From NCBI GenBank assembly GCA_029964075.1, contig CM057130.1:1736001-1800000 (forward strand): a DNA stretch of 64,000 bases, read 5' to 3'. This stretch comes from Patiria pectinifera (Eukaryota; Echinodermata; Asteroidea; Valvatida; Asterinidae). Positions 7,401-44,300 of the stretch are shown here, in pieces. Position 1 is the stretch's first letter, and each line of letters begins with the position of its first letter. Made by a program: the position numbers and the translations under genes. Below the pieces are notes generated by a model. The model was not told the DNA's origin. It did no database searches and saw nothing but the letters and a program-made list of their open reading frames with translations.

Positions 7401-10400
7401 AATGAAGACAGCTCAGATATGATTGTGTTAGCTAGGGCTGTGCATCAGAACGGGGTACCTGGGTACCCGACTACTGATGTCAGTAACCGGTTCCAGATTA
7501 TGAGATCGGGTACCCTACCGTATTTTACAAACTACTTAGCAAATATCTAAGAAAATGTGGGGAATTTTCGAAATGAAAACTAGGCTACATGGAAAACCAA
7601 TACAGATTTCACTTATAAATACAGTACGTGCACTTTAAGGCACGACAGATGAAGTTTCAGTTTAAACTGCAAAGCTATAAAGTCCTTCAGACAACTTCCA
7701 GGATTTTTTTTTTATATATTTTTTTTTACTGGCATCCGGGTATCTCTGTTTTACTTCATTAGGGTACCCAGTTCCAGTGTACGTGTATGTACTACCCATA
7801 CACTCTTGTTTTACTATACTCTCGAGGACAATGCTTTGTGTTTCCCTTTGTCCCTGTAATATAGCACTCTCCCATAGACTAAGCACACAAACCTACTACA
7901 GAGGACCGTTTTCAACAAAAGACCCAACTCCCAAGGACTGAAAGGATCTGTTGTTTTCCCTTTGGGTGTCTGTCCTCTTGGGGTTATGTAGAACACGTAC
8001 ATAAATGCACGCCACTAGTGTTTGCTATGTGCAGTAGTGTGTGTGAATTTTTTTCATAGGTGTGACGATGTCTTTTGATGTACGATGTGTGCATTGTCTC
8101 AAAATGAGACTTACATTACATTATTCATAAGAGGGAATTTTGCGTCGGGATGATGTAAATCAAATTAGGTTTTTCAACTTTTTGCCCTTCACTGACGTGT
8201 AAACACTGTATACTTAGTGTGTTACCTCCCGAGTGAAAGTTGGAAAAAATCACTCGGGTGGGACTCGAACCCACGACCTCCTGCTTTCTAGTGCAGATGT
8301 CTTACCACTCGACCACCGAGCTAACATGACATTGATTATAACATGAAGATTTTGCACAAGTTAAATTATTTTGGAGTTTTGTGCATGCTTGTAAAAAAAT
8401 CAAGGAAATGGATTTGTGCATGTTAACATAGCAGAATGAATGAGTAGAGAATTTTCTGGGATGTACCAGTGTTGGATGCACCGATTTTATTCAATTTTTA
8501 TGCAGGAATGTTTTTTTCCCCCACATGAAGATTTTGATGGGCCATTATTTACAGGTAGTTTGTCACTGGGTGATGTTGCATGAATTGCCTTTGTGCTTTA
8601 TTTGTGCTTCAACAAACTTTAATAGCGGTTTCTATTTTTGTCTAGGTGTACATGTACATTAATCTTTTTCTTTTACTATAAAGATGATTTTGAAAGACTG
8701 AAGTGAAATTTATAAATAGTTTGTACCGGTACATGTATGCCAAGTTGGAATTTTTCAGTTTGACAGAGTAGTAAAAGTGGGCATGTGAAGCCTTGGATAC
8801 ATGCATCTGAATTGAAACGTGACAGAAATTATCCTTGCTTTTTGCAGTTTACGAATCACCAAGCCTTCCCGTTGGCTCTCATCTGGGCTGAACCAGGGCA
8901 GCAGGCAGATCAGTAAGTTAGCAGCCGTGTTATTAACATATCCAGGGTAAAGTGCAGACACGTGTAAGACCGACAAACCACTGGACTAGTAAAAACGAAC
9001 ACAAACAATAACCAAGGACGGACTAACAAACAAACATACAACAGGGGTCAGTTGCATTACCTAATACTGAGACTAAATGAAACACTACGAGGGAAGGACC
9101 AAAAAGCTGCTCATGACAGAGAAAGAGAAAGATGCTATGCTAAATAATGGGGCAAAAGATGTATCCATTTTGGTGGAGCTTGTTCACCGTGGCCTTGCTT
9201 ACACCTACTGCCAATCTCCCCATCCAGGAACACCATCCAGCTGACGATGCCGGAAACCTCGCTCACCCTCCAAGCCCCGACGCCGGCCGAGAAGGCCGAG
9301 TGGCTGTGGTCTGTCAACCAGGCCATCGACGCCGTACTGACCAATCAGAAGCCAGGGTGTGTCTCTCCGGCCGCCGTGCCCGCTGGCCAGAAGATCCCAC
9401 CCAAACTGACCAGGCAGGGGCGTTACTTGTTCCTGGGACAACCCAAGTTCAAGGATGCTGTGTATGAGGGGACGTGGCATTTGGGAAAACCCCATGGAAA
9501 GTGAGCATCTGTTGTTCTTTGATTTTTTTCTTTTAACTTGATTAAAATCATTTTTTTAGAGCCATTTTAAAAGGTTGGGGGTTGTGCCCCTCCCTGCCTT
9601 CCCTGGCCCCCTCTCTTCTTCCTTTTCCTACCCCCACTTCTTCTACTTCCTAACCACCACCCCCCCCCCCCCACATCTCGGAAATGACCGTTTTTTTTAA
9701 TGAAATTGTAGAGACTTTGATGTTCATTGCATGTAAATGTAAAATCAGCCACCTATTTTTGCCATGCACCCTCAGTCCTGCAAAATCCTCCATTTACAAA
9801 GAGGATTTGGGAGGATTTGGGAAGGTGTTAGGGTTCTACCTTCCAGTCCGTGAAAGGTAGTGTGTTACTTACATGTACACCATGACCTACATGATCAGTG
9901 GATAACAGTGATTCTTGGGTACCTTGCTTCGACAATTAAACATTTTTTGCCTACACTTTGTCCAATATTTATGAAATTGGTGTGAAAATGTCCGCTACAC
10001 ATGAACTGGTAAGGGAACGGTCTTGAAAAAAAAAAGTGGGGAACAATATTGGAAGAAAGCAAATGAGTTGATGTCAGGAATAAAGAAATGATTTAGTAAA
10101 TAAAAGTATTCAAGTTTTTTTAGGGGGTAAGGATGATCTACAATATAACGCCTACATGAAATTAAAAAAAAGTTCATCTTCATATGACACATAATTTGAC
10201 CTTGCATTAATTACATGTTTGTGTACTATATTGAGGAGATCCATCAACTAATCTAGTCATTAACTTTGTACTTTTAAAATAGCTTTAATGGGTAATTATA
10301 AATACAATCTTTTGGGAGGCATGCGTGGCTTGTGCGTAAAGCGCTCGCCTCTCACCACTGTGGCCCTGGTTCGAATCCCGGCCGCGGACCATACATGCCA

Positions 10401-16400: not shown

Positions 16401-19400
16401 TGCCAAGAAAAATGGAGATAAAAACACCAGCCTGATAAGCCATAATGTCTCAAGATGTGTGTTATTTACTCTCTATATTTCCCCCCAGATATGGTGTGTA
16501 TACAACTCCCAGTACTGAGAAGGGCATGAAGGCACAGGTGTATGAGGGAGAATGGCAGGAGAGTTCTATGAGTGGCTATGGCACCCTAAGGTATGAGACA
16601 TTTAAGGATGCAATCAAGCTAATTGATGTCCATTGCAGAGTTGTAATGTCTGGAGTCCATGACTTGACTCGAGTCGGACTCGAGTCGATGACTCGACTCG
16701 AGTCGGACTCGAGTCAATGACTCGACTCAAGTCCGACTTGGGTCAATGACTCGACTCGAGTCCGACTCAAGTCACAATTTTGTTGATTCGACTCGACTCG
16801 AGTCCCTCATCAGAAGACTCGACTCGACTTGAGGAAGGCTTATAAGACTCGAGTCCCAAAAATAAAAGCAAAACTTTGCGAAAAATATTTGCATGACTTA
16901 TGCCGGTGCTGGTTTTTGTTCACGTCACGTTAGAATGTTCGCTAATAATGTATACATAGACACACATTAGTTGAATGGCATTCACCTTTGCACCCCGTTT
17001 TCATTTCCATTAAGAGTCAAATGTGGTGTCACCACATGTAGTAGCCGGAATGCAAAATTAAATAAGCCAAAAAATGACTTTCTCTCAAGATTGTGTTTAT
17101 TTATTGTGTAGCGTTCAAATATTTGTGACTTGAATTGACTCTAATGACTCAACTCGACTTGAGTCACTTCTTTAAAATGACTCGACTTGACTGGAGTCAC
17201 AAAAGTCAGTGACTCGTTACAACTCAGTTCCATTGTCACTTACAGCCATGCCATTAACCCGTAAGCTGTTTTAGGCTGATCCCACATAGCTGACTATACC
17301 GGTAAATCTAGTCCAACCAGCTACCATAAGGTCATGAAAGTTTTGTTGATCTCCAGTCATAGTGTTGCCTCATGTCTTGATCAAGTTTGTTCCATGCTTC
17401 CAATTGGGCCAGGTATTCCAACGGAGATATTTACCAGGGCGATTTCAACGACGGCATGCGCCACGGGCACGGCATCATTCACAGCAGCACGGGCAACCTG
17501 TACATCGGGGAGTGGCACAACGACCGTCGCCACGGCTACGGAATCATGGAGGAGAGGCTGCGGGGAGAGAAGTACATGGGCAAGTGGGAGACCGACTGTC
17601 GGCACGGCAACGGGCTGGTCATCACGATGGCCGGCTTGTACTACGAGGGCCTCTTCACGCAGAACAAACTGATGGTGAGTGAGGAGTTGTGTGATGAGTA
17701 ATGAGGCTTTTTGCTCAGAATGTAGTTAGTGTTGCCTCACGTTTTGATGACTGTTCAAACTGCTTATTGCTTTGCCTGCCATTTTGCAGGGTGTCGGCAT
17801 CCTTCTTACTGAGGATGGCACTGTGTACGAAGGAGAGCTGACTACTGGTCCTACGCTTAGCGGCAAGGTATGACTACATGCAATTATAATAATTATGTGC
17901 TGCTTATATAGCACAAAGGTCTCAAATTGCTTCACAATTATTATCCCTGTTCGTCAGGCCATGAGACCAGTTTCTGCAGCAGCTCGAGATCGGCGCACTC
18001 TGGTCTCTACCTTCACAGGTACCCATTTATACTCCTGGGTAGAGAGAGGCAGTTGTAGTAAAGAGTCTTGCCCAAGAACACAAGCACCATGTTCCTCATC
18101 AGGGTTCGAAACCACGTACCGTGGCACTTAAGTCAAACACCATAACCATTGAAGCAAAGCATCATAAACTCATACATTAAGTACGTAGTCCTTGATAATG
18201 CACAGAGTAATCCTGGGTATGAATGATCGTAGCACTCGTATTAGTTTTAGCAGTAATGAAAATTGTGCTTGTGTTCCAGAAAACAATGTGATGTCTTCGT
18301 TGCCATAATCAATCTGATGCAGGGAGGGACCCCCTCTAAGGACCCCATTTCATTGGGAGAGAAAAAAAGAGATTGCAGCGCAGTGTCTTGTCCAGGGACA
18401 CAAGCTCTATGATCCACTGGTTGGGTTTAATTCTAACTCCCCAGCATAATTTACTTGGAACCGTACCCATTCAGGCAAATTCCAACACCCACATGAGAAA
18501 TTGTACACACACACTGTTGGACTTAGTTTCTGGAGGTATGCCAAACCCAATGGAAAAGACCATCAGTTTAGGGGTACCTATCCCAACAGATTTAATCAAA
18601 ACCTGCTGTTATCTTTGATGGGTTGGGTTGGGTTGGGTTAGGGTTAAAGCCCGTGTTTTAACAGAAGCCGTTGACACCACTTGAAGCTCAAGCTTTACAA
18701 CAATTTAATTTTTAAATCAGATTTGAATGTTGTCCGTCTCTCTCGCTCTGCCAGGGACTTTTGATGTTACCCTCCGGAGACTTCTTTGACGGTACTTTCA
18801 GCGGCCTATGGGGCGACGGCGTCAAGGTCAATGGAACCTTCAGTAAAGCTGCTGACTCGACTCCTAACAGCACTAAACAAGCCAGGTCAGAGTTATCCTA
18901 GAATTTGTTTAATATTTTGAAGGGCGAGTTCTTTTGTTGATGCTAATGCGATTTTTTTTTTTTTTAACAGTCCAATAGGTAAATTCACCGTAGCGGCAGA
19001 TGACAAATGGGAAGACGTCTACAACCAGGTTCGCTCGGTGCTGGGCTTGCTGGAAAACAAGCGGCCGGACTCCCAGAAGGCCTGGGCAGCTGTTGCCGTG
19101 GCGATATCATCACGGACACGGCAAGAGAAAGACAGGTCAGATGCTTGTCCGTGAAATATTTGAAATTTAAAAAGAGAGGCGCAAATTTTTTTTAAGTGAC
19201 GATATCAGTCACGGCATGTTTGGCATATCCTTGTACTTTTACTTTGCAGGTTGCATAAGGATGAACGCAGCAAGGTAGTAGAGGAACTGCAGAAGATACC
19301 AAGCAGCGGTCATAGTAAAGGGAAGATCACTGAAGAGGACTACAAGGCAATACAGGAATACTTGGCTAAGGTAAGGATATCGAAATATAATATACTTGGC

Positions 19401-22400
19401 TAAGGAAAGGATATCGAAATATAATATACTTGTCTAAGGTAAGGATATCGAAATATAATATACTTGTCTAAGGTAAGGATATCGAAATATAATATACTTG
19501 TCTAAGGTAAGGATATCGAAATATAATATACTTGTCTAAGGTAAGGATATCGAAATATAATATACTTGTCTAAGGTAAGGATATCGAAATATAATATATT
19601 TCTATATCATTTCAACTGTACACATGCAAAACCAGATCAACAACATTCGCTGTTCGCCCACAACAGTCCTCCACAAATTTTGCCATTAACTGAACCAGGA
19701 GATCACTGAAAAACTGGTTCACACATTGATTTCATGTCATCTGAAGTTTTGCATCACATTGCCTTTCAATCTTTCCAATTCATAGATCTCAAAAACCAGA
19801 ACCTATACAGAACTCTGCCGCCAGATTTGTTGCTCTTTGTCAATCCAGCAATGCCCAAATTCTTTGCTCTCTCCACTGGTTAAATATTCATTTTCAAATT
19901 ATAAATGATTTATTGATAAAAGAGATTAGCATGGCAGCCCAGGGGCTGAATTACATCAGAATTTACATATATTCAAATGAACATAAACATTAAAAAGTCT
20001 AGTAACAAACAAGAAATATTCAACCCAAACAATGTAAAATACATGCACACTTGAAAGTACATGTGTATCATGAAGGTACAAAAACCCGTAAAATGCACCA
20101 AGTTCAATATTTTCCTTCTTGCGTACAAATGTAAAAAGAGATCGGCTATTCAGTGTTTCTCAAGAAATTATCCATGTTTATCACACCCTCCACTCAGGCG
20201 TGCAACTTTTCCTCGGATCCGCTGATTTCCTCGTTTTTTACTTCTCATGAATGCCATTACAAATTGAAAAACACTGTACAAATTCTTGTGTGGTTTGGAA
20301 TTTCCTTGTTTTTTTCTTCTAAATTCCCAGTTGCATGCCTGTCCACTCTAGCTCACAATCTCTACTTAAACAACCCGTCGTTCACAACAATTCTCACGGT
20401 CAATGGTAACTCATATTCTGAGCCCCTGCACTCTGAAAAACCCGCTCAGACATTGCATCCTGACTGCATAAACAGAAACTGATTTTAAATCCGTGTGCAC
20501 TGGTCTGAGACCAGCTTGTATGTGATATAGCATCTACACAACATGTGCATTAGTCTGGTGCCACTTGTTTTCATGAATCTTCACGATACACGTGTACTCG
20601 TTGATCTTTATATAACTGACATACAGATCCTTGTCATTTGATTGGTGGAACTCGCATCACGTGACATTCGTTATTGCTCCCATTCACGCCGGGGCTCAAA
20701 AAGTCCCATTCGCCCATGGGGAATGGGAAATACTATTCAACAGTTAGGATCATCCTTGTTCCATGACGCGGTATTTGTGTGCAAATGCATGCTGGTGTGC
20801 GCGTTCAGCGTTGCGCGTATTTTTCCAAAGAGCCAGCGCTACAGCGTTGGGTTCAAACATTTTCGTAAAGGGGTGGTTTGGAAGAGAGAAATACATTTTC
20901 GACCAATTTTGTATTGAAATAAAAGTTCAAATACATGTATATCAAATGTATAAATATTAAACAAATATTGAGTGGCTTTAAATTGTGAAATGGGAGGAAA
21001 GTCCAGATATTACCTTGCTGTAATATTCCTCCCATTTCACTCTGAGCCACTCAATATTTGTATACCATTAATAAGACTGGATAGGACACAACGCCCTCCA
21101 TCTTGTGCACGCACACGTAGTCATCGGTGAGGGTTTGAAAGTTTGAAATGCGATCGTCATACACAGACCATGCAGCACGCACACGTCCCGCATGTGCGGT
21201 CGCAAATGTTAAACCCGCACTGCACTATCCAGCTGTTTGTGTCCGCGTTTTCAGAATCTTCATTGCGTGCAAGTATATACGTGTCCTATCCAGTCTTACT
21301 AATGGAGATCAATGCGTGTACTGCAGGCAATAAGTCAACTCTCCATGTGAATGGCGAAAGTGGAAATTTTTTCATTTCTATCACATTTCCACCGCGGCGT
21401 ACTCTACAAACTTTTGAGCCATTCTGAATCCATTGGATAGAATTGTGTGCACTCTAGGACCACTGTACTAGACTTGCCTTGTTTGGGTTTTTAAAAATTA
21501 TTTATTCAATGAAACCAACAGCGGTTATCCGCCACTTACAGGTATCATGCATTAAATACATTTGTTATACATAATATTGTAAAAATTCTAAGATCCTTAC
21601 AATCCTTACCTCTTACAGGCCTTTGATACATCTCTTCACCCCCTGGGTAGACTCCTTGAGAACCTGTGTGTAGCCTACCGTGAGACCTACATAGGCCTGG
21701 GTGCTCATCGCTGGCTACTGCCTTACGCTGTGGAAGAGATCAAATCATACGTCAAGAGGATATACCAGCTAGTCCGGTGAGAAAGGATCTGTGCTTAAAA
21801 GCCAGTTCATAAAATAATGCGAAGGTCACAAAACATTCCCTGCAAAAGTTTCCGGAGTTGAAATGTGTTCAGTTTTTGTGAATTTGAAGCACGGAGATTT
21901 GCTGTGACATCAGAAATGTGCTTTTGCATTCGCTTTTGTGCCGAGAATGAACTGGTCTTGAGATGATAAAAACCATTGCTTAATTTAAAATGGGTATATT
22001 TTGGCCTTCATTGGCTGGGTGGTTTTTTTTAGCTTTCAAAAGTAGACCATTAGGGCCAATGTAAAGTAACCAGTGGCTGGGCTGTGTATTACTAGATTCA
22101 TCCAAATTCTACAAAACCAGATGTGGAGCGTTTCCAAATGTAGTACTTTCCCCTTTTTTTTTACGTGCAAATGCCACATTGGGATTTAGTGTGTCATTTA
22201 GAGCAGTGTAGGAGATTTTGTAGTGTTTTTGGGTCAATTTCACAAATTTTCACACAAAGTTGGTATCATGCTGCAATCTGTTTCATTTTGTGTACAAAAA
22301 TGTGTACGCCTCTCTTTCAAGCTTCCACTTTCATTATTTTACTTTTCCAGAGTACTGTTCAACGACCTCCCAAATGAGCATCCAAACAAACCAGAAACTC

Positions 22401-25400
22401 CAGTTCATGATCACCACACCTCAGACTTCCACTACTACTATGACTACAGCGACAGCCATCCGCCCCCAGCAGTGGAGGCAAAGATAGCCAAGTCTGCAAG
22501 CAGGAACAGGCAGCTGTCTACGGATGATATGTAAGTCAGATGTCAGTGTCGTAGTCGAGTCCATCACAAGTCCTCACAAGTCAATCACAAGTCAGTCACA
22601 AGTCAGTCACAAGTCAATCACAAGTCAGTCACAAGTCAATCACAAGTCAGTCACAAGTCAATCACAAGTCAATCACAAGTCAGTCACAAGTCAGTCACAA
22701 GTCAATCACAAGTCAGTCACAAGTCAATCACAAGTCAATCACAAGTCAGTCACAAGTCAGTCACAAGTCAGTCACAAGTCAATCACAAGTCAGTCACAAG
22801 TCAATCACAAGTCAATCACAAGTCAATCAGTCCTAAGTCATGTCATAAGTCTCTGAACCACCTTTTCACACTTCAAAATATATATTTTACAAATTTTTAT
22901 CTAGGAATACTTTTAAGCTACTTATAGGGGAGTACTTATGGGGGAGCGTGGCCCAGTGGTTAGGGTTTGTGACTCATGATCAGAGGGTTAGGGGTTTCGA
23001 ATCCAGCTGCAGGTCATATGCTGTGTCCTTAGGCATGCCACTTCACCCCTACTGGCCTCTCTCCACCCAGGAGTATAAATGGGTACCAGTATTAGCTGGG
23101 GAGCAACCTGCGATGGACTAGCATCCCATCAAGGGGGATTGGAAATATTCTCAGTCGATTCATGTAACTGAAACCAAAGATAAACGCCGGCCTGATGGGC
23201 CACATTGGTTCGTGACAGACTTAACTTTACTTTTTTCACTTTTAAGCTGACCCAAGGACAAATCTTTAGCAAAATTTCACTTTGTCCTTCCTTGTTTGTG
23301 CAGCACCTGTCATATTACGAGTGATGGTCTCCTATACCCGATAGTACTACCGCGCCTGTACCCGGCCTTGTTTACTCTCTATGCCTTGAAGAATGAGGAG
23401 GAAGATCAACAGTACCAAGACAGGTTGAGAAGACTGAATGAGAGGCCTGATATGGCCCTGCTGGCGTACCTCAAAGTGGACCAGTAAGTAGTGAAGACAG
23501 AGAGACAGATGGACTACTGACGAATGGACACACAGACTAGGTAACGAGTAGAACCAACAGTACAAAAGAAGACCGTGAGAAGCCTAATCATATGGCCCTC
23601 ATGGCATACCTCAAGGCAAACCTCAAGGTGGCTCAGTAAGTAGTGAAGACAGAGAGACAAGTGGACTGCTGATAAATGGACAAACAGACTAGGTAACGAG
23701 TAGAACCAACAGTACAAAAAGAAGACCGTGAGAAGCCTAATCATATGGCCCTCAAGGCATACCTCAAGGTGGCTAAGTGAGTAGTGAAGACAGAGAGACA
23801 AGTGGACTGTTGACAAATGGACAAACAGACTAGGTAATGAGTAGAACCAACAACGCAAAAAAGACTGTAAGAAACCTAATCACATGGCCCTCATGGTATA
23901 CCTGAAGGCATACCTCAAGGTGGATCTGTAAGTAAAGAAGACACATAGACAGATGGACTGCTGACGAATAGACAAACAGATTAGGTAATGAGTAGGACCA
24001 ACAATGCAAAAAAGAAGACTGTGAGAAGCCTAATCACATGGCCCTCATGGCATACCTCAAGGCATACCTCAAGGTGGATCTGTAAGTAAAGAAGACACAT
24101 AGACAGATGGACTGCTGACGAATAGACAAACAGATTAGGTAATGAGTAGGACCAACAATGCAAAAAAGAAGACTGTGAGAAGCCTAATCACATGGCCCTC
24201 ATGGCATACCTCAAGGCATACCTCAAGGTGGATCTGTAAGTAAAGAAGACACATAGACAGATGGACTGCTGACAAATAGACAAACAGATTAGGTAATGAG
24301 TAGGACCAACAATGCAAAAAAGAAGACTGTGAGAAGCCTAATCACATGGCCCTCATGGCATACCTCAAGGCATACCTCAAGGTGGATCTGTAAGTAAAGA
24401 AGACACATAGACAGATGGACTGCTGACGAATAGACAAACAGATTAGGTAATGAGTAGGACCAACAATGCAAAAAGAAGACTGTGAGAAGCCTAATCACAT
24501 GGCCCTCATGGCATACCTCAAGGCATACCTCAAGGTGGATCTGTAAGTAAAGAAGACACATAGACAGATGGACTGCTGACGAATAGACAAACAGATTAGG
24601 TAATGAGTAGGACCAACAATGCAAAAAGAAGACTGTGAGAAGCCTAATCACATGGCCCTCATGGCATACCTCAAGGCATACCTCAAGGTGGATCTGTAAG
24701 TAAAGAAGACACATAGACAGATGGACTGCTGACGAATAGACAAACAGATTAGGTAATGAGTAGGACCAACAATGCAAAAAGAAGACTGTGAGAAGCCTAA
24801 TCACATGGCCCTCATGGCATACCTCAAGGCATACCTCAAGGTGGATCTGTAAGTAAAGAAGACACATAGACAGATGGACTGCTGACGAATAGACAAACAG
24901 ATTAGGTAATGAGTAGGACCAACAATGCAAAAAGAAGACTGTGAGAAGCCTAATCACATGGCCCTCATGGCATACCTCAAGGCATACCTCAAGGTGGATC
25001 TGTAAGTAAAGAAGACACATAGACAGATGGACTGCTGACGAATAGACAAACAGATTAGGTAATGAGTAGGACCAACAATGCAAAAAGAAGACTGTGAGAA
25101 GCCTAATCACATGGCCCTCATGGCATACCTCAAGGCATACCTCAAGGTGGGTCTGTAAGGAGAGAAGACATATAGACAGATGGACTGCTGAAGAATAGAC
25201 AAACAGATTAGGTAATGAGTAGGACCAACAATGCAAAAAGAAGACTGTGAGAAGCCTAATCACATGGCCCTCATGGCATACCTCAAGGCATACCTCAAGG
25301 TGGTTCTGTAAGTAAAGAAGACACATAGACAGATGGAATGCGGACGCATCGCCAAACGGATTAGGTAATGAGTAGGATCAACAATGCAAAAAGAAGACTG

Positions 25401-28400
25401 TGAGAAGCCTAATCACATGGCCCTCATGGCATACCTCAAGGCATACCTCAAGGTGGATCTGTAAGTAAAGAAGACACATAGACAGATGGACTGCTGACGA
25501 ATAGACAAACAGATTAGGTAATGAGTAGGACCAACAATGCAAAAAAGAAGACTGTGAGAAGCCTAATCACATGGCCCTCATGGCATACCTCAAGGCATAC
25601 CTCAAGGTGGATCTGTAAGTAAAGAAGACACATAGACAGATGGACTGCTGACGAATAGACAAACAGATTAGGTAATGAGTAGGACCAACAATGCAAAAAA
25701 GAAGACTGTGAGAAGCCTAATCACATGGCCCTCATGGCATACCTCAAGGCATACCTCAAGGTGGATCTGTAAGTAGTGAAGACACATAGACAGATGGACT
25801 GCTGACGAATAGACAAACAGATTAGGTAATGAGTAGGACCAACAATGCAAAAAAGAAGACTGTGAGAAGCCTAATCACATGGCCCTCATGGCATACCTCA
25901 AGGCATACCTCAAGGTGGATCTGTAAGTAAAGAAGACACATAGACAGATGGACTGCTGACGAATAGACAAACAGATTAGGTAATGAGTAGAACCAACAAT
26001 GCAAAAAAGAAGACTGTGAGAAGCCTAATCACATGGCCCTCATGGCATACCTCAAGGCATACCTCAAGGTGGATCTGTAAGTAAAGAAGACACATAGACA
26101 GATGGACTGCTGACGAATAGACAAACAGATTAGGTAATGAGTAGAACCAACAATGCAAAAAAGAAGACTGTGAGAAGCCTAATCACATGGCCCTCATGGC
26201 ATACCTCAAGGCATACCTCAAGGTGGATCTGTAAGTAAAGAAGACACATAGACAGATGGACTGCTGATGAATAGACAAACAGATTAGGTAATGAGTAGGA
26301 CCAACAATGCAAAAAAGAAGACTGTGAGAAGCCTAATCACATGGCCCTCATGGCATACCTCAAGGCATACCTCAAGGTGGCTCAGTAAGTAGTGAAGACA
26401 GAGAGACAAGTGGACTGCTGACGAATGGACAAACAGACTAGGTAATGAGTAGAACCAACAGTACCAAAAGAAGACTGTGAGAAGCCTAATCATATTGCCC
26501 TCATGGCATACCTCAAGGCATACCTCAAGGTGGATCTGTAAGTAAAGAAGACACATAGACAGATGGACTGCTGATGAATGGACAAACAGACTAGGTAACA
26601 AGTTGAACCAACAGTACCAAAAAGAAGACTGTGAGAGGCCTAATATGGCCCTCATGGCATACCTCAAGGCATACTTCAAGGTGGCTCAGTAAGTAGTGAA
26701 GACAGAGAGACAAGTGGACTGCTGACAAATGGACAAACAGACTAGGTAACGAGTAGAACCAACAGTCCCAAAAGAACACTGTGAGAATCCTAATCATATG
26801 GCCCTCATGGCATACCTCAAGGCATACCTCAAGGTGGCTCAGTAAGTAGTGAAGACAGAGAGACAGATGGACTGCTGACAAATGGACAAACAGACTAGGT
26901 AATGAGTAGAACCAACAGTACCAAAAGAAGACCGTGAGAAGCCTAATCATATGGCCCTCATGGCATACCTCAAGGCATACCTCAAGGTGGCTCAGTAAGT
27001 AGTGAAGACAGAGAGACAAGTGGACTGCTGACAAATGGACAAACAGACTAGGTAATGAGTAGAACCATCAATGCAAAAAGGAAGACTGTGAGAAGCCTAA
27101 TCATATGGCCCTCGTGGCATACCTCAAGGCATACCTCAAGGTGGCTCTGTAAGTAGTGAAAACAGAGAGACAAGTGGACTGCAGACAAATGGACAAACAG
27201 ACTAGGTAATGAGTAGAACCAACAATGCAAAAAAGAAGACTGTGAGAGGCCTAATATGGCCCTCATGGCATACCTCAAGGCATACCTCAAGGCATACCTC
27301 AAGGTGGCTCAGTAAGTAGTGAAGACAGAGAGACAAGTGGACTACTGACGAATGGACAAACAGACTAGGTAATGAGTAGAACCAACAGTACAAAAAGAAG
27401 ACCGTGAGAAGCCTAATCATATGGCCCTCAAGGCATACCTCAAGGCATACCTCAAGGTGTCTCAGTGAGTAGTGAAGACAGAGAGACAGATGGACTACTG
27501 ACGAATGGACAAACAGACTAGGGTAACGAGTAGAACCAACAGGCCCAAAAGAAGACTTTGAGAAGCTTAATCATATGGCTCTCATGGCATACCTCAAGGC
27601 ATACCTCAAGGTGGCTCAGTAAGTAGTGAAGACAGAGAGACAAGTGGACTGCTGACGAATGGACAAACAGACTAGGTAATGAGTAGAACCAACAGTACCA
27701 AAAGAAGACCGTGAGAAGCCTAATCATATGGTCCTCTTGCTATACCTCAAGGCATACCTCAAGGTGGATCTGTAAGTAAAGAAGACACATAGACAGATGG
27801 ACTGCTGATGCATAGACAAACAGACTAGGCAACAAGTAGAACCAACAGTCCCAAAAGAAGACTGTGAGGGGCCTAATCATATGGCCCTCATGGCATACCT
27901 CAAGGTGGACCAGTGAGTAGTGAAAGCAGACAATGACAGACAAACATATGAACACCAAAGAAATGGTCTAACAGACTAAGTCATGAATATAAACAATAGT
28001 ACTGAAAGGACGTCGGAAAGAGGTCTGATGTGGCCATCATGGCATACCTCAAGGTGGACCAGTAAGTAGTGAAGACAGAGAGACAGATGAACAGCTCACA
28101 AATGGACCAACAGACCAAGTAATGATTGAAGCCATCAGTAGCATGAGAAGACAGATTGAGGGGCCTGATAGTATTAAAGTTGCAAAATAAACCGACAGAC
28201 GAGCACCCCAAATTATGAAGTTTGAAAGCAGTGAAATATTGGTTGTTTTTTCACAGGTTTATCGACGACTGAAATACGCTTTTCAATTTTTTTGGTTTAA
28301 ACTTGAGTTTTTAACAGGAAAGGTAAATGTTGGTCATGATAGGATCGTAAAACATACTTTGATGAATGATGCAAATTCAAAGATTTTTCATCTCATCAAC

Positions 28401-30198
28401 AGGAAATTCTGGCTTCTGGAAGACGTCATGAAGGACTCTTTGAAGGTAACGTCATTCGCAAGTTTACATACAATGTTGATAAATAATATCAATTTGAATA
28501 TATGTCACTATGCCTGCTTTTCAGCTGTTTTTAATTTTTTATCCCACTTTTAGTAGATTCAAAGGAAACAGTCTGACACAAGCTGCATATCTTGCTCCAC
28601 AGAGAATCTCTGAGATTCGCGACGTCTCCTACGTCGCGGCCGTGGAGTGCCTGCAGAACATGAGCACGACGTTCAGCCCGCGCCAGAAGCTCCTCATCAT
28701 CCACACGGCCTGGGAGGCCATCAAGGAAGCCATTGAGGTCCACAGCACAGAGAGTGTCACGCTCGGTATGGATGAGCTGTTCCCGATCTTTCAGTACGTG
28801 GTGATTCGTGCAAGGTAAGTCGGTTTGTATTGCTAACAGTCGACCATCCCATTAAGCTCACCCCCTGTGATTTGTGCACACAAGTTTGACATGTGTGGGC
28901 GTGTTCATCTATTCAAACGGTGGACAAACATTCCAGAGAACAAATGAGAACAATATCGTCCACGATTCCCAGCATACGTACGGGATTGGGGTCGTGTACA
29001 AAACCTATGGGAGTCTTCCTAAAAAGTTAGAGTACAAACAAAAGAGGGACAATAGGATGTCCACGATCGACGGTGTGAACACGCTTACATGAACACGTAG
29101 ACGACACGCGGGCCTGGAACACACAGTGTGGTATTCAGGCATGAGATTTTTCAGACTTTTGTCTGAAATCAGACACTTTAAATATGAGAGAAAGACATTA
29201 TCAGTAAAGAAACAAATGCATCTTTCAGACCATATTTGCAATTTTCAGACGTATTTTTAAATGGACAATCTCATTCCTGGGTGTTGGAGAGCTCCCTTGT
29301 TGCTGCCCATGCGCGCATTCGGCAGGGTGTAATGGATCAATGTATTGTTAACTGTTGACTTGGATGTAAGACATTTTTTCCCCCTGCGTTTCTTTTTCTG
29401 CAGGTAATCATCGTTGTTTTCCTGCAGGATTTTTTTTGGGGGCAGTAATAATACTAAAACCACCTTTAAGGTACAAAGAATCATAGTATGAACATCATTC
29501 AAAGGTGCGGTTACATGAAAAAGTTGGTATGTGTGAGAGGAAAATTTATTACAGAGGTGAGTTTTGAAGAGAGACAGGTCCCGAGTTACCGTGCACTCGT
29601 CTGGCAAGGAGTTCCAGAGACACGGTGCAAAGCTGAAAAAAGCGTGTTCTCCATGTGTCACCAAAATGGGTCATAGGGGCAAACAGTATAATGAGGTGAC
29701 ATCCTCGTAATTAAAGACCATCATTTTTTATCAAAAAAGATTCCAGCTAAATCACCTATGTCTAAAACAAGTGTAAAAGCTGCCAGGTTTTTGCCTCATG
29801 ACTAAGGAATACCTCTTCGCGAAATCTGTGAATGGAAGTTGACTCTTCAGTCATAGCGGGATATTTGTTTGCAGGCATAGCAGGATATTTGTTTTCATTT
29901 CAGGCTGAATTTCTTTGTTATGAAGCGCCCCAATCGCACATATCCCTCATTTTTTTGGGTTCATTATTCCAATGAGTTAAAGCTCTTCATATCCATGCAA
30001 TAAGTGAAAATTACCAGTCCTAAAAATGAGACATTTTCTCCTTTCAGGATACCGCACTTGGGCTCGGAGATTCAGCTCATCAATGACCTGATGGAGGTCA
30101 AGTCTGACCCGGGTCAGTGGGGTCACATGTTCACGACCTTGGAGGCCTGCTACCTGCTGACAAGATACGATAAACTACCCGAGGACTCCCTGCATTAA
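4338..30198 (+). CDS. ALS2: Alsin (ALS2) orthologue, 3' half: PH end, MORN repeats, VPS9 domain
   Basis: Sixteen exons join in phase to give about 771 residues plus a stop, close to the length of the corresponding part of human alsin. In order they encode the second half of a PH domain, MORN repeats with YxGxWxxxxxHGxG-type spacing, a linker, and a VPS9 domain ending in [13 protein letters not shown]. Alsin is a guanine-nucleotide exchange factor for Rab5 on early endosomes (VPS9 domain), and the PH/MORN region takes part in membrane binding and oligomerisation; these roles are family knowledge. All introns are GT-AG. The first visible exon begins inside the PH domain, so RCC1-like and DH exons must lie left of the window or be absent. 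The intronless lectin lies in the 9501-14718 intron. An ALS2CL-type paralogue is possible but less likely given the linker and C-terminal match. Confidence 0.93.
4878..5013. mobile_element. Foldback MITE, 136 bp
   Basis: GAGACCTGATGAC at the left mirrors GTCATTAGGTCTC at the right. Inside, GCGCTTTCCTATG pairs with CATAGGAAAGCGC and a TTTGCTTACAT-type block pairs with ATGTAAACAAAG. The same end sequence borders the larger 31672-32558 element. Confidence 0.75.
7798..7922 (+). repeat. Dispersed repeat, copy 1 of 2
   Basis: About 125 bp, containing TTTTACTATACTCTCGAGGA and CAGAGGACCGTTT, reappears in the same orientation at 61687-61812 with scattered substitutions. Family unknown. Confidence 0.75.
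8180..8322 (-). mobile_element. tRNA-derived SINE, reverse strand
   Basis: On the minus strand the head (8322 to 8251) has a Pol III A-box-like TGGTCGAGTGG and a B box GGTTCGAGTCC, with acceptor, D and T stems partly paired. The anticodon arm is imperfect (8-nt loop), so it is not a credible functional tRNA gene. The body, GAGTGATTTTTTC and onward, is shared with the copy at 52850. Confidence 0.65.
8848..8912 (+). CDS. ALS2: ALS2 exon: PH domain
   Basis: Acceptor TTTGCAG, donor GTAAGTT; 65 bp ending with two bases of a split Gln codon. The peptide [17 protein letters not shown] aligns with alsin FSTHHVFPLATLWVEP. Confidence 0.9.
8913..9227 (+). other. ALS2: ALS2 intron, 315 bp
   Basis: Short intron from GTAAGTT to CATCCAG. 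Nothing else recognised. Confidence 0.75.
9228..9500 (+). CDS. ALS2: ALS2 exon: PH end and start of MORN region
   Basis: The first base completes the split Gln codon, giving [19 protein letters not shown]. The PH-end helix [18 protein letters not shown] matches alsin. The exon ends at the first MORN unit, [13 protein letters not shown], with donor GTGAGC. Confidence 0.93.
9501..12290 (+). other. ALS2: ALS2 intron, part left of the lectin gene
   Basis: No exon of ALS2. It contains a C-rich stretch (9580-9672), a scrap of the CCTCC/GGAGGATTT repeat (9775-9830) and a SINE (10318-10500). The rest, to 12290, is AT-rich without recognised features. Confidence 0.65.
10318..10500 (+). mobile_element. 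tRNA-derived SINE
   Basis: The head contains GCGTGGCTTGTGCGTAAAGC and the B box GGTTCGAATCC (about 10369). A body follows containing CTCCGGTTTTCCTCC. A divergent relative lies at 35318-35480. Pol III transcription is inferred from the boxes only. Confidence 0.7.
12291..13058 (-). CDS. Secreted C-type lectin with PAN/Apple domain, intronless
   Basis: One 255-codon exon. Residues 1-22 form a weak signal peptide. A C-type lectin domain spans about 34-158, with six cysteines (34, 45, 61, 131, 146, 155) and the fold motif [20 protein letters not shown]/Apple-like module follows at about 183-245, with [16 protein letters not shown] and further cysteines. The usual calcium/sugar triplets are altered: APD stands where EPN or QPD is expected and WQD replaces WND, so calcium-dependent sugar binding is doubtful. 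It probably acts outside the cell, perhaps in recognition or adhesion. It is antisense to and inside an ALS2 intron. Lack of introns could mean retroposition, but no poly(A) relic was seen. Confidence 0.88.
   Translation of the reverse strand: MFSLQKVSIWYMSSQILIAMATEPCPSPTASEYCLPSWQQWGGSCYRLTPPATWEATELACRQLGGKIAAPQSLAENEFFVSQIPEQYGYINIGCDDRLIETMWICEGEKAEFVNWADGAPDGGTESPEDCAVLIRSHGKWQDGSCNTGSVPGICKRCIIAAFTQSRTYALAVDEAGTPLNSCLLDHVIQEFSTLSIPRCANACMQVPRCRSFNFMKNEGHKICQLNNSTRTDVPDKFAEIGVLCANADESTEQK
13320..13653 (+). repeat. Two-copy tandem duplication, unit about 167 bp
   Basis: TTTATTTGTTATTTTTTAT begins both copies (about 13320 and 13487). Both continue through ATGGATGTGTCCT and GTGTTTGATAGAAAAGTGC to a TTCTTTCTTTGTTACAT end, with few mismatches, indicating a recent duplication. 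Confidence 0.85.
14349..14492. mobile_element. Near-perfect 144-bp hairpin (foldback element)
   Basis: The arms, of about 68 bp, run from GGAAATAACAGTGTGAGGA to the mirror TCCTCACACTGTTATTCC. A very small spacer lies around ATTAACAGCGG near 14425. Few mismatches were seen. Confidence 0.85.
14719..14784 (+). CDS. ALS2: ALS2 exon: MORN repeat
   Basis: T-rich tract plus GCAG acceptor, donor GTGAGT. The peptide [18 protein letters not shown] matches alsin GVLKWPDGKMYSGMF. Sixty-six bp, split codons at both ends. Confidence 0.92.
14909..15157. mobile_element. MITE with GGGCTCCGTGC ends
   Basis: GGGCTCCGTGCGC at the left mirrors GTGCACGGAGCCC at the right, 249 bp overall. GC-rich inside. No clear target-site duplication seen. 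Confidence 0.55.
15655..15775 (+). mobile_element. SINE fragment
   Basis: GGGCCTGTGACTCATAG followed by a B-box-like GGGTTCCAATCC resembles the head of the SINE at 22930. Body truncated. Confidence 0.5.
15864..15990. repeat. Foldback repeat, 127 bp
   Basis: GGCCATCGCAGATTTGT at the left mirrors ACAAATCTGCGATGGCC at the right. The inner TTTGAAAAA/TTTTTCAAA extends the stem. Confidence 0.7.
16489..16590 (+). CDS. ALS2: ALS2 exon: MORN repeat
   Basis: Acceptor CCCCCCAG, donor GTATGAG. The peptide includes [20 protein letters not shown] and [12 protein letters not shown], matching the alsin segment GYGEYRIP...YVGHW. Confidence 0.91.
16591..17412 (+). other. ALS2: ALS2 intron, 822 bp
   Basis: Dominated by the GACTCGAGTC satellite near its 5' end and a decayed patch at 17120-17215. 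The rest is unremarkable. Confidence 0.7.
16660..16860 (+). repeat. Palindromic GACTCGAGTC satellite
   Basis: Reiterated GACTCGAGTC and ATGACTCGACTC blocks begin about 70 bp after the exon donor. Related degenerate blocks recur at 17120-17215. Each unit is self-complementary, so the array can form cruciform or hairpin structures. Confidence 0.85.
17413..17674 (+). CDS. ALS2: ALS2 exon: four MORN-type units
   Basis: Eighty-seven full codons plus one split base. In order: [58 protein letters not shown]. The GEKYMGKW block is nearly identical to alsin GEKYMGMW. Donor GTGAGT. Notably GC-rich compared with flanking introns. Confidence 0.95.
17790..17867 (+). CDS. ALS2: ALS2 exon: MORN repeat
   Basis: Twenty-six codons, phase 0: [18 protein letters not shown] then TGPTLSGK. 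Aligns with alsin GNGVLLSEDDTIYEGEFS. Acceptor TTTTGCAG, donor GTATGA. Confidence 0.93.
17868..18754 (+). other. ALS2: ALS2 intron, 887 bp
   Basis: Contains a reverse-strand SINE (17885-18160) and possibly a second decayed SINE piece at 18300-18470. A short (GGGTT)n run is near 18620. Confidence 0.6.
17885..18160 (-). mobile_element. tRNA-derived SINE, reverse strand
   Basis: The left end is an ATAATAATTAT-type tail. CAGGTACCCATTTATACTCC, CTTGCCCAAGAACACAAGC and a reverse B box (GGGTTCGAAACC at about 18101) are shared in order with the copies at 41690 and 53856. Confidence 0.7.
18755..18885 (+). CDS. ALS2: ALS2 exon: last MORN unit and linker
   Basis: [20 protein letters not shown] then [14 protein letters not shown], aligning with alsin [20 protein letters not shown]. 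131 bp, donor GTCAGAG. Confidence 0.93.
18971..19135 (+). CDS. ALS2: ALS2 exon: linker between MORN and VPS9
   Basis: Acceptor TTTTTAACAG after a T tract. [20 protein letters not shown] then [19 protein letters not shown], matching alsin LAVPADEKW and KAWDNIAVALTTSRRQ. Confidence 0.93.
19250..19370 (+). CDS. ALS2: ALS2 exon: pre-VPS9 helix
   Basis: [16 protein letters not shown] and [15 protein letters not shown], aligning with alsin QTLESLEFIP and VEKYDDIRKYLIKA. Its last bases, CTTGGCTAAG, and donor GTAAGGATAT form the founder of the array that follows. Confidence 0.93.
19358..19600 (+). repeat. 34-bp minisatellite, 7 copies, overlapping an exon-donor junction
   Basis: The unit is TACTTGtCTAAG + GTAAGGATATCGAAATATAA + TA. 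GGATATCGAAATATAATATA occurs seven times at 34-bp spacing. Copy 1 includes the genuine exon end and donor; copy 2 has GAAAGG instead of GTAAGG. Later copies are almost identical. Confidence 0.95.
20195..20341 (+). mobile_element. CAGGC-ended MITE, copy 1, 6-bp TSD
   Basis: Ends CAGGCGTGCAACTT and AGTTGCATGCCTG are inverted. TCCACT occurs on both sides (20189-20194 and 20342-20347). The body is about 90% like the copy at 62303-62446, judged by eye. Confidence 0.88.
20962..21060. repeat. 99-bp hairpin
   Basis: CAAATATTGAGTGGCT at the left mirrors AGCCACTCAATATTTG at the right; GTGAAATGGGAGGAA mirrors TTCCTCCCATTTCAC inside. Confidence 0.8.
21065..21305. mobile_element. TIR element, 241 bp
   Basis: AAGACTGGATAGGACAC at the left mirrors GTGTCCTATCCAGTCTT at the right. 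With CCATTARTA at the edge the terminal inverted repeat is 25 bp with one mismatch. Confidence 0.8.
21619..21776 (+). CDS. ALS2: ALS2 exon: start of C-terminal VPS9 region
   Basis: [20 protein letters not shown] and [16 protein letters not shown] match alsin DTPLHPLGRLVETLVAVY and VKEIKSYLKRIFQLVR. Acceptor TCTTACAG, donor GTGAGA; 158 bp. Confidence 0.95.
21777..22350 (+). other. ALS2: ALS2 intron, 574 bp
   Basis: Nothing recognised beyond short T tracts. Ends with ACTTTTCCAG. Confidence 0.6.
22351..22530 (+). CDS. ALS2: ALS2 exon: variable insert within the VPS9 region
   Basis: [18 protein letters not shown], then a His/Tyr/Pro-rich stretch and [12 protein letters not shown]. It corresponds to the poorly conserved alsin segment between FQLVRFLFPELPEE and YVVTSSGLL. 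Donor GTAAGT. Confidence 0.88.
22560..22835 (+). repeat. 11-bp minisatellite, about 25 copies
   Basis: Alternating AATCACAAGTC and AGTCACAAGTC units begin about 30 bp after the donor at 22531. The alternation between A and G at the second base gives higher-order 22- and 33-bp patterns. The long plus-strand frame here is a by-product of the repeat. Confidence 0.95.
22930..23225 (+). mobile_element. tRNA-derived SINE, near full length
   Basis: Head: A-box-like GGCCCAGTGGTTAGGG and B-box GGTTTCGAATCC. Body: GGAGTATAAATGGGTACC, GCGATGGACTAGCATCCCAT and a GCCGGCCTGATGGGCC end. Confidence 0.75.
23304..23483 (+). CDS. ALS2: ALS2 exon: VPS9 core
   Basis: [20 protein letters not shown] and [17 protein letters not shown] match alsin [20 protein letters not shown] and RLNKQPDIALLGFLGV. 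The exon ends CCA with donor GTAAGTAG, and its last 75 bp found the array downstream. Confidence 0.95.
23484..28075 (+). repeat. About 153-bp minisatellite, about 29 units, copied from the ALS2 exon-intron junction
   Basis: Each unit joins about 75 bp resembling the end of the preceding exon (GCATACCTCAAGGTGGA after TATGGCCCTCATG) to a donor-like GTAAGT and about 78 bp of intron (GACAGATGGACTGCTGA, ACAAACAGATTAGGTAATGA). Inner units are nearly identical and carry an internal GCATACCTCAAG duplication. Edge units near 23490 and 28060 look more like the exon and keep GGACCAGTAAGTAGTG. Units are 153 or 154 bp according to an A-run of five or six. The minus-strand frames here, up to 345 codons, arise from the repeat. 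Confidence 0.97.
28076..28402 (+). other. ALS2: End of ALS2 intron after the array
   Basis: Decayed repeat at the left, then unique AT-rich sequence ending in TCAACAG. No other feature. Confidence 0.6.
28403..28445 (+). CDS. ALS2: ALS2 micro-exon: VPS9 domain
   Basis: Forty-three bp: the first G completes CA|G, then [14 protein letters not shown]. Aligns with alsin RKFWPATLSILG. The phase fits both neighbours, donor GTAACG. Confidence 0.88.
28603..28814 (+). CDS. ALS2: ALS2 exon: VPS9 domain
   Basis: [58 protein letters not shown], matching alsin [20 protein letters not shown] and MDDLFPVFLYVVLRAR. An acceptor at 28570 was ruled out because it runs into an in-frame stop. Donor GTAAGT. Confidence 0.94.
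28815..30047 (+). other. ALS2: Last ALS2 intron, 1.2 kb
   Basis: Contains a LINE remnant on the minus strand (29520-29664) and otherwise no recognised feature. Ends CTCCTTTCAG. Confidence 0.7.
29520..29664 (-). pseudogene. Non-LTR retrotransposon fragment (C-terminal end)
   Basis: The minus-strand frame reads [20 protein letters not shown] then [11 protein letters not shown]. This is the typical APxLWNSLP...SFKxxLKTHLF end of CR1/L2/Jockey-like LINE ORF2 proteins. The reverse transcriptase and endonuclease are absent, so it is a dead 5'-truncated copy. Confidence 0.78.
30048..30198 (+). CDS. ALS2: ALS2 terminal exon
   Basis: [20 protein letters not shown] then [20 protein letters not shown] and a TAA stop. 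Aligns with alsin IRNLGSEVHLIEDLMDP...MFTTLKACYYQIQREKL. The protein ends about eight residues beyond the human C-terminus. Confidence 0.95.
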
Positions 30199-41300: not shown

Positions 41301-44300
41301 TCTTCAATTTCCCATTACAAATAGAAAAATGTAAACCAAAAGTAGGCATTTGAAAAATCTTGAACAAATGAAATGAATTTTAATTAACTGTCTCTTTTTG
41401 TCCTTTTCATGTTTACCTGCATGTACAGCCCCGCTAATGTCACTGCATCAGCATCACTGCATGGATACATCCCCTTCAGAACGTTGACAAGGCACTCGTC
41501 AAAAAGTGTCTTGACTGCATGAGCATCCTTGATCTGGTGAGAAACAAAAATAGTAATTATTTTAAGATCCGTACAGAGAATGACATGAGTCTTCATGAGA
41601 TAGGGGGCTTTTCACACTGTCCAAAATCTCTGTGTTGGACCCAGAGATTCAGGGAACCTATTTCAGACTACTACTAATAATCATAATAATAATAATCGGC
41701 ATTTAAGAACACTCTTATTAGTGAACTAGATCACAGCGCTTACAGTATTATTATTATTACCCCTGATCATTGGGCCAATTAAACATTCCAAGTACCATCT
41801 CAGCTCCCTGGGGAGCATACAGCTCGATGCTGCCTGTTAGGCGCAAGCGAGCTTATTCAATCACAATAACCATCTCTGCCCTCACAGGTACCCATTTACC
41901 TGGGCGGGGAGAAGCAATGAGTGACAAAGTGCCTTGCCCAAGGGCACACGCACTGTAACCCCAGGCTGGACTCGAACCCAAAACCCGCAGAATTACTTGC
42001 AGACCACGAATTCAATGCCCTTAACCACAAGGCCACGGCACTCCACAGACTAGCAAGAAGCCCACATGGCTTCTACACAGGTACGGTGCTCTGCACAGGT
42101 GCTATCCCACCATGATTGGGTAGAAAATAAAAATTAAAAAACGCTGGAATATGGCTAATACGTGCACGTTCCATCTCTACTGTGCGTTAAGTTTGCTTGA
42201 AGATAAATTTGTGATTCCACTCACGCTTGTGAAAAATGAACATGGAAAATGCAGTGCGTCTGTGTTTTATGTAAGGGACATAAACACTCATTACTCGCGC
42301 TCGTGGGATAACTAATATTGGAGCACACAATGCGCATATTTGAAGTAAGAGTTTCCAAAACAAGGAGGCCTTAGGCAGAGATGAAGCCACGGTTCAAACA
42401 AGTAAGGTGTGTTTACAAACACAAATGCCCCGCAACCGTGACTGTTTCCATGACATAACACATACTCTTTTAACATCAACTTACATGTACCTTGGTCACA
42501 TGGAACATTCATTGACAGCATTAGTGTCTTCTGTAGGTTTTAAATGAATTGATCCCTAATCCCTATGATCTCAGAATAAATACAAGATTTCTATTGTTTT
42601 AGCCACTGTGACCTTGACCTTTGACCTTTCGACCCCTAATGTGATAGGCCTATTTGGATTACCAAGAACGATCCACAAACCAAATTTGAAGTTCACTTGT
42701 AAAGTATTTCTCAAGTTATTGCGCTGACAAAATTTCTTTTGTTTTAGCCACTGTGACCTTGACCCTTGACCTTTTGGCCCCAAATGCAATAGGCTTCTTA
42801 GGATTGCCAAGGACAATCCACAAACCAAATTTGAAGTTCATATGTAAAGTGTATCTCAAGTTATCACGCTGACAAGTTTCTTTTGTTTTTTGCCACTGTG
42901 ACCTTGACCCTTGACCTTTTGGCCCCAAATGCAAAAGGCTTCTTAGGATTGCCAAGGACAATCCACAAACCAAATTTGAAGTTCATATGTAAAGTATTTC
43001 TCAAGTTATCGCGCTGACAAAATTTCTTTTGTTTGAGTCATTGTGACCTTGACCCTTGACCTTTGGGCCCCAAATGCCAAAGGCTTCTTACGATTGCCAA
43101 GGACAATCCACAAACCAAATTTGAAGTTCATATGTAAAGTATTTCTCAAGTTATTGCGCTGACAAAATTTCTATTGTTTCAGCCACTGTGACCTTGACCT
43201 TTGACGTTTCGGCCCCAAATGCAAAAGGCTTCTTAGGATTACCAAGGATAATCCACAAACCAAACTTGAAGTTCATATGTTAAGTATTTCTCAAGTTATC
43301 GCGCTGACAAGATTTGTCCGGACACACACACACACCCATTCCAAAATTTGTATCCTTGTGGAGACATTTCTTTGTTCCCGTGTAGTAAAGTGTTCAATTT
43401 TGAAAGTGAATTTTCAAAATGCTCTTATTTTAACCAGAATAAGTTTCCTGGGCTGAAATTTGGAATTAATATCCCTTTTCTAAAACTCTTCCATCTGCGA
43501 CAAATAAACACACCTTGGAAATTCCTAGTTTTTGAGTAAAACCCATATATCTATTTCGTGAAAACCTTGTGGAGACCTATTCATCTATAGAAATTGCCCT
43601 GTGGAGACCTTTACAATGTTTTGTTCACTATTGTGTGTGAGTCTCCACAAGGCAGCGAATTTGTGGTCACCCACACCCCTCCCCACCCACACCCACACAC
43701 CCACCCACCCACCCACGGAAGGACAAGGCGGAAACAGTATCAGGGATAACTTGAGGTGAGTTTGTTTGTGTTCTTACCGTCCTTTCGTCATCCACTGTGA
43801 GCAACGCGTCTCGTCTCAGATACAGCAACGGCTGCTCTGTTTCTGGGTTGTAATTGGTCAGCTGTCGGATGATCATACTCCACTGTTTGACGTGTAATAC
43901 TGGCTTGTGTTCTGGCCTCATCTGCAAATCTATGGAAAGAAAATCGGAAAGATTCCTGCTAAACTTGCAATAGAGCTGTCAGGACTTTAAGTCGGGTGTA
44001 ACATTTGGACAGGAAATTTGAGGTATAGTTCATGTTATGGTCGTTTACAAAATTGGATGTTGTGGTCGGGAAAAAATGCTCTCTTCTGCAATGCATGTTA
44101 AACTTTTGAAATATAAGTAGTTCAAAAGTGTTGATGTAAATTCTTCATTGTGGGCAAAATAACATGCAAAAAATGTTTATGTGTTTAGGTTGTCCGTTGC
44201 TTGCCCATTGGTTGCCTGTTAGTATCACATCACAAAAAACATGGTCTTATACAAGAAAACGGTACACTTAAGCCCGGTTCATACTTCACGCGAAAGCATG

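Follow-up and report, generated by a model that had tools for sequence, protein, structure and literature searches.

How can one intron of a conserved gene carry 31 donors of nearly equal pairing with U1 and give one sensible product? This question is raised by a tandem array found in the window analysed here, that is, the whole stretch of 64,000 nucleotides from Patiria pectinifera (GC 0.408, CpG o/e 0.63). The answer that we favour, with a probability of about 0.85, is that the array is a minisatellite of the mirage type, made of tandem duplicates of a donor junction and tolerated through use of the first donor.

The host gene looks like alsin (ALS2), in agreement with an earlier note on this DNA. 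Pfam matches to VPS9 (exon 28603-28814, E=4.9e-12) and MORN (17423-17674, E=3.1e-13) exceed the cut-offs, and a weak match to alsin PH (9148-9501, E=1.6e-4) lies below. The gene is named after this order of domains, which we take to be that of ALS2. A PDB search with the VPS9 exon returned weak matches only, VPS9A appearing at E=0.84. The gene map, derived from open frames and splice sites, comprises 11 exons between 9228 and 28814 and is possibly incomplete, chiefly between 9501 and 16489. The exon whose 3' end seeds the array (23304-23483, plus strand), recognised by its open frame and splice sites, ends in AYLKVDQ and is followed by the donor GTAAGT at 23484. It joins in phase, with no stop, the next exon (28403-28445, plus strand, acceptor CAACAG before a G, 71% pyrimidine tract), which was assigned by this phase-compatible join, and then the plus-strand exon 28603-28814. 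The array exon had been taken for the VPS9 exon, an assignment that Pfam does not bear out. It finds in this exon (23305-23481) neither VPS9 nor anything else above cut-off, and VPS9 falls in the exon at about 28603-28818.

The array extends over 23408-28170 on the plus strand and is composed of the exon end with its own donor, 30 full extra units and one truncated unit. TRF gives a period of 153 with 27.1 copies and 94% matches for 23750-27905. From 23484 to 28062 there are 31 donors, the exon's own included, separated by 141-163 bp (153 or 154 bp in 23 of the 30 spacings). Past the last donor, at 28062, the truncated unit consists of an intron-like part and then exon-like sequence up to 28170, and its score against the exon, 39, was reached by none of 2000 shuffles. 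An array of about 29 copies at 23409..28075 had been described previously; it is real, but the count is 30 full extra units and the limits 23408-28170 fit better. The repeat begins within the exon (near 23408), which leaves the exon's acceptor and first ~100 nt outside. This position of the start contradicts a tandem exon duplication, as in clusters of mutually exclusive exons. Although the units do carry exon-like sequence and a donor, they hold only the last ~75 nt of the exon, lack its acceptor and first ~100 nt, and contain indels that change the frame, which renders such a duplication scarcely credible.

The exon-like parts of all 30 units score 28-65 against the last 75 nt of the exon, above the maximum of 27 (mean 14.3) of a null of 1000 dinucleotide shuffles, in which the exon end was scrambled and compared with a single core unit, as the earlier note had anticipated; unit 3, with 28, exceeds it barely. 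Local identity to the exon is 74-87% over 24-66 nt, a figure taken for some units over 24-50 aligned nt, and the true intron start is 73-96% identical to the intron-like parts. Exon end and intron start occur in this order within the units, in register with the true junction. Judged from these alignments, the array units are copies of the exon-intron junction. The homology of ~75 bp attributed to each unit is thus present but not as a clean copy of 75 bp: relative to the exon, most units show deletions of ~7-8 nt and 2 nt, an insertion of 3 nt and a 12-nt internal duplication, and these indels alter the reading frame. The majority unit differs from the exon at 3/22, 4/22 and 6/23 sites of codon positions 1-3, and at 9/68 sites in the intron part; the counts per codon position are too few for a conclusion about coding selection on the units. 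The consensus donor claimed for each unit is found, as GTRAGT, in 29 of the 30 decoys, the exception being that at 25155 (GTAAGG), and 23484-28170 contains 30 GTRAGT sites when the real donor is counted. Homogeneous units of 153 bp look like those of a satellite, and an ordinary satellite or mobile repeat might lie here, its similarity to the exon being due to chance or later conversion. However, the units match both the exon and the true intron start in register, and the rest of the 64-kb window holds no other copy of the unit (a single 13-bp match, E=0.11), so that this origin is highly improbable.

The homogenisation of inner units, already suspected, is evident in a core of 16 consecutive units (23928-26384, plus strand; donors 24082-26231 and neighbours) defined by alignment, neighbour identity and tree. 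These units are nearly identical, many of them identical, most have GGATCT/GTAAGTAAAG, and neighbour identity is 0.93-1.00 across most of the core. In a midpoint-rooted tree of 31 rows and 151 kept columns, the bootstrap of which is rough and not settled, one clade (97/97) contains 18 units, including two scattered ones whose presence there reads as a sign of exchange. Could the copy number be partly an artefact of assembly? Over the 151 columns there are two sets of five identical rows, and the ten identical-type core units could reflect assembly choices. However, 23 of the 31 rows differ and both ends of the array grade into unique sequence, and an artefact is considered distinctly unlikely.

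The distal edge (27772-28170, plus strand, from alignment and tree) comprises the units with donors 27913 and 28062 followed by the truncated unit. The two full units lack the 12-nt duplication and are the only ones to retain GGACCA; exon-proximal units read GGCTCA and GGCTAA. The idea that edge units keep exon-like sequence is therefore correct for the distal edge but not for the exon-proximal one. Since overall identity to the junction is lowest (0.80 and 0.75) in the very units that keep GGACCA, the order of ages is unsure. The growth outward from the junction proposed in the earlier note was dropped: identity to the junction is not significantly correlated with unit number (Spearman 0.16, p=0.39), and the tree places the exon so that the two distal units lie on one side of it and the remaining 28 on the other. 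The alignment is best described as a homogenised interior with a divergent distal edge and no gradient away from the exon.

With respect to splicing, the dozens of decoy 5' splice sites that had been announced are strong ones. Pairing energies with U1 are -7.0 to -7.3 kcal/mol for 29 of 30 decoys and -7.2 for the real donor, from which these 29 differ by at most 0.2 kcal/mol; the decoy at 25155 reaches -4.8. The array contains 30 of the 54 plus-strand GTRAGT sites of the window. Should the exon be spliced from a decoy, whichever of the 30 it is, an in-frame stop follows at residue 60, directly after VDQ, and among the 31 donors the authentic one alone keeps the frame open. Since decoys are as good as the real donor and only the real one preserves the frame, position must decide, and donor choice is probably exerted via exon definition and by the real donor being transcribed first.

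A different view is that the array is used, its donors or pseudo-exons yielding regulated alternative or poison isoforms that lower the level of alsin. The equality of 29/30 decoys with the real donor in U1 pairing agrees with such a use, and so does the position of the decoy stop, which precedes the next junction by a long distance (151-4577 nt), as would be expected of a target of nonsense-mediated decay. Acceptors are less favourable to it. CCAACAG, put forward earlier as an acceptor for pseudo-exons, does occur in 10 of the 30 units, at the corresponding position, but without a pyrimidine tract (29-35% pyrimidines upstream versus a mean of 70% at the 11 acceptors of the gene map, a value slightly off because 16538 stood for 16489 among them), and pseudo-exons from this motif were judged unlikely for that reason. 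Among 12 listed of 516 AGs, other sites in the array (..CTCAAG) have 71% pyrimidines upstream in many units and 82% in one. These sites also speak for a used array, and because of them pseudo-exons appear unlikely rather than excluded. In addition, the passages available from PMC3087553 and PMC3902484 report normal splicing for genes with mirages. Taken together, a used array seems unlikely. AATAAA and ATTAAA are absent from the 4687 bases of the array, which is uninformative because a single unit recurs throughout.

The tolerated junction duplicate would have arisen as follows. A segment straddling the junction, with ~75 nt from the exon end and ~77 nt from the start of the following intron, would have been duplicated in tandem and expanded to 30 extra units through unequal exchange or slippage, its middle becoming homogenised. 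A duplication across the donor would leave the first exon-donor copy intact, and this is why the array could be tolerated. If the spliceosome keeps the first donor, all sequence up to the sole real acceptor, 28403, would be removed with the intron. Having donors but no good acceptors, decoys would compete only by serving that exon as late donors, each adding an immediate in-frame stop. We infer the mechanism of duplication, the use of the first donor and the tolerance alike.

Repeats of this kind, called mirages, are known in amphioxus from Adh3, the globins BflGb6 and BflGb9, troponin C and PGBD5. The passages available from PMC3087553 and PMC3902484 describe them as minisatellite-like: an exon-intron boundary is repeated in tandem, many of the copies carry splice signals, the interior is homogenised while the edge is excluded from concerted evolution, and the length varies between haplotypes or cells. 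Units are of 150-160 and 157 bp in the globin mirages (PMC3087553) and of 60 and 108 bp in those of PGBD5 (PMC3902484), and, according to PMC3902484, those of Adh and troponin C give rise to no aberrant mRNA. The alsin array likewise has a unit that spans an exon-intron boundary, of 153 bp, near the globin values, and a homogenised interior with a divergent edge (the bootstrap being rough); its units of 141-163 bp, like the 34-bp unit of another array described below, compare with the minisatellite sizes of 10-72 to 150-160 bp given in the amphioxus passages. It differs in the number of extra units, 30 against 3-7 in those passages, in its alsin-like host and in that this host has a further array at a donor. 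From its structure, by which alone the likeness was judged, the alsin array would be a large, long example of an already described repeat, and it fits every feature tested. Neither an alsin mirage nor a mirage copy number near 30 was found in the open-access papers searched.

Other known systems are more distant. In the intron gain of Rogers 1989 (cited in PMC3087553, in the passage available), tandem duplication of AGGT-containing exon segments also carries splice signals inside a gene; however, the alsin array lengthens an existing intron from its donor end, and no new one is observed. The excerpt of PMC3948165 describes a 38-bp VNTR in intron 6 of TERT that acts on splicing. Both cases are tandem repeats within an intron, but in TERT they are situated over 1 kb away from the junctions, and those of alsin are copies of a junction.

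The array is not the only one at a donor of this gene; like the amphioxus precedent, the others had escaped the earlier note. A screen of its 11 donors and 11 acceptors (22 tests; introns longer than 3 kb were tested over 3 kb) revealed two donors with clear spanning arrays, 23484 and 19371, and one probable relative, 22531. At 19371 (U1 pairing energy -10.0), seven copies of a 34-bp unit occupy 19358-19598 on the plus strand. This unit joins 13 nt from the end of exon 19250-19370 to the first 21 nt of its intron, its junction-spanning score of 91 is reached by 0/500 null draws, and the donor GT is kept in six of the seven copies, that at 19405 being GA. At 22531, a probable third array, an 11-bp minisatellite of 24.8 copies without exon (22558-22829, plus strand), begins 27 nt past the donor and resembles the first 42 nt of that intron (score 26, 0/500 null draws), so it was probably seeded just inside the donor. 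None of the 11 acceptors showed a junction-spanning match above chance. Arrays sit at donors more often than random placement predicts: reshuffling of the five arrays located between 9 and 30 kb, with windows set once the data had been seen, gave P=0.018 for two that span a donor and P=0.0026 when three that span or lie near one are counted. With arrays at two, probably three, of the 11 donors and no clear one at an acceptor, the pattern suggests that it is duplications across a donor that are tolerated.

Given that 22 tests were made, three further matches were left uncounted. At 20-38 nt upstream of donor 19136, the exon has a stretch similar to part of the ensuing short intron (19100-19215; score 26, 0/500, non-spanning), perhaps an old single duplication; donor 28815 has a weak match (8/500), and acceptor 16489 a match inside the intron (3/500). 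There is also, at 16653-16774, an array with a 29-bp unit, ACTCGAGT-like and in part palindromic, which lies 62 nt past donor 16591 and in which no exon similarity was found.

The array is a natural test of donor choice among many look-alikes. Variants of its length among individuals would make measurable both the effect of donor position and number on splice choice and the growth of an intron from its donor end. A function as a docking platform for U1 snRNP can also be imagined: with ~30 strong donors and no good acceptors, the array would recruit U1 at many points of the intron, which would shield the transcript from premature cleavage or assist definition of the upstream exon, and alsin output would then be tuned by array length. 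U1 is described as restraining premature cleavage and, in PMC11289892, as acting via deep intronic sites in SMN genes; for the alsin array, the platform is a speculative and very unlikely role.

Some other elements were observed in the window. On the minus strand, an open frame of 362 aa runs across the array (24289-25377) and is taken as a by-product, since 153 = 3 x 51. A 145-bp tandem array of 5.1 copies with TGACCTTGACC motifs and no tie to an exon is located at 42582-43315. Rfam identified nothing beyond a tRNA-like sequence (8250-8322, minus strand; RF00005, 49.9 bits), and a single-exon reading frame at 1495-2883 is that of a rhodopsin-like GPCR (7tm_1, E=3.2e-16).
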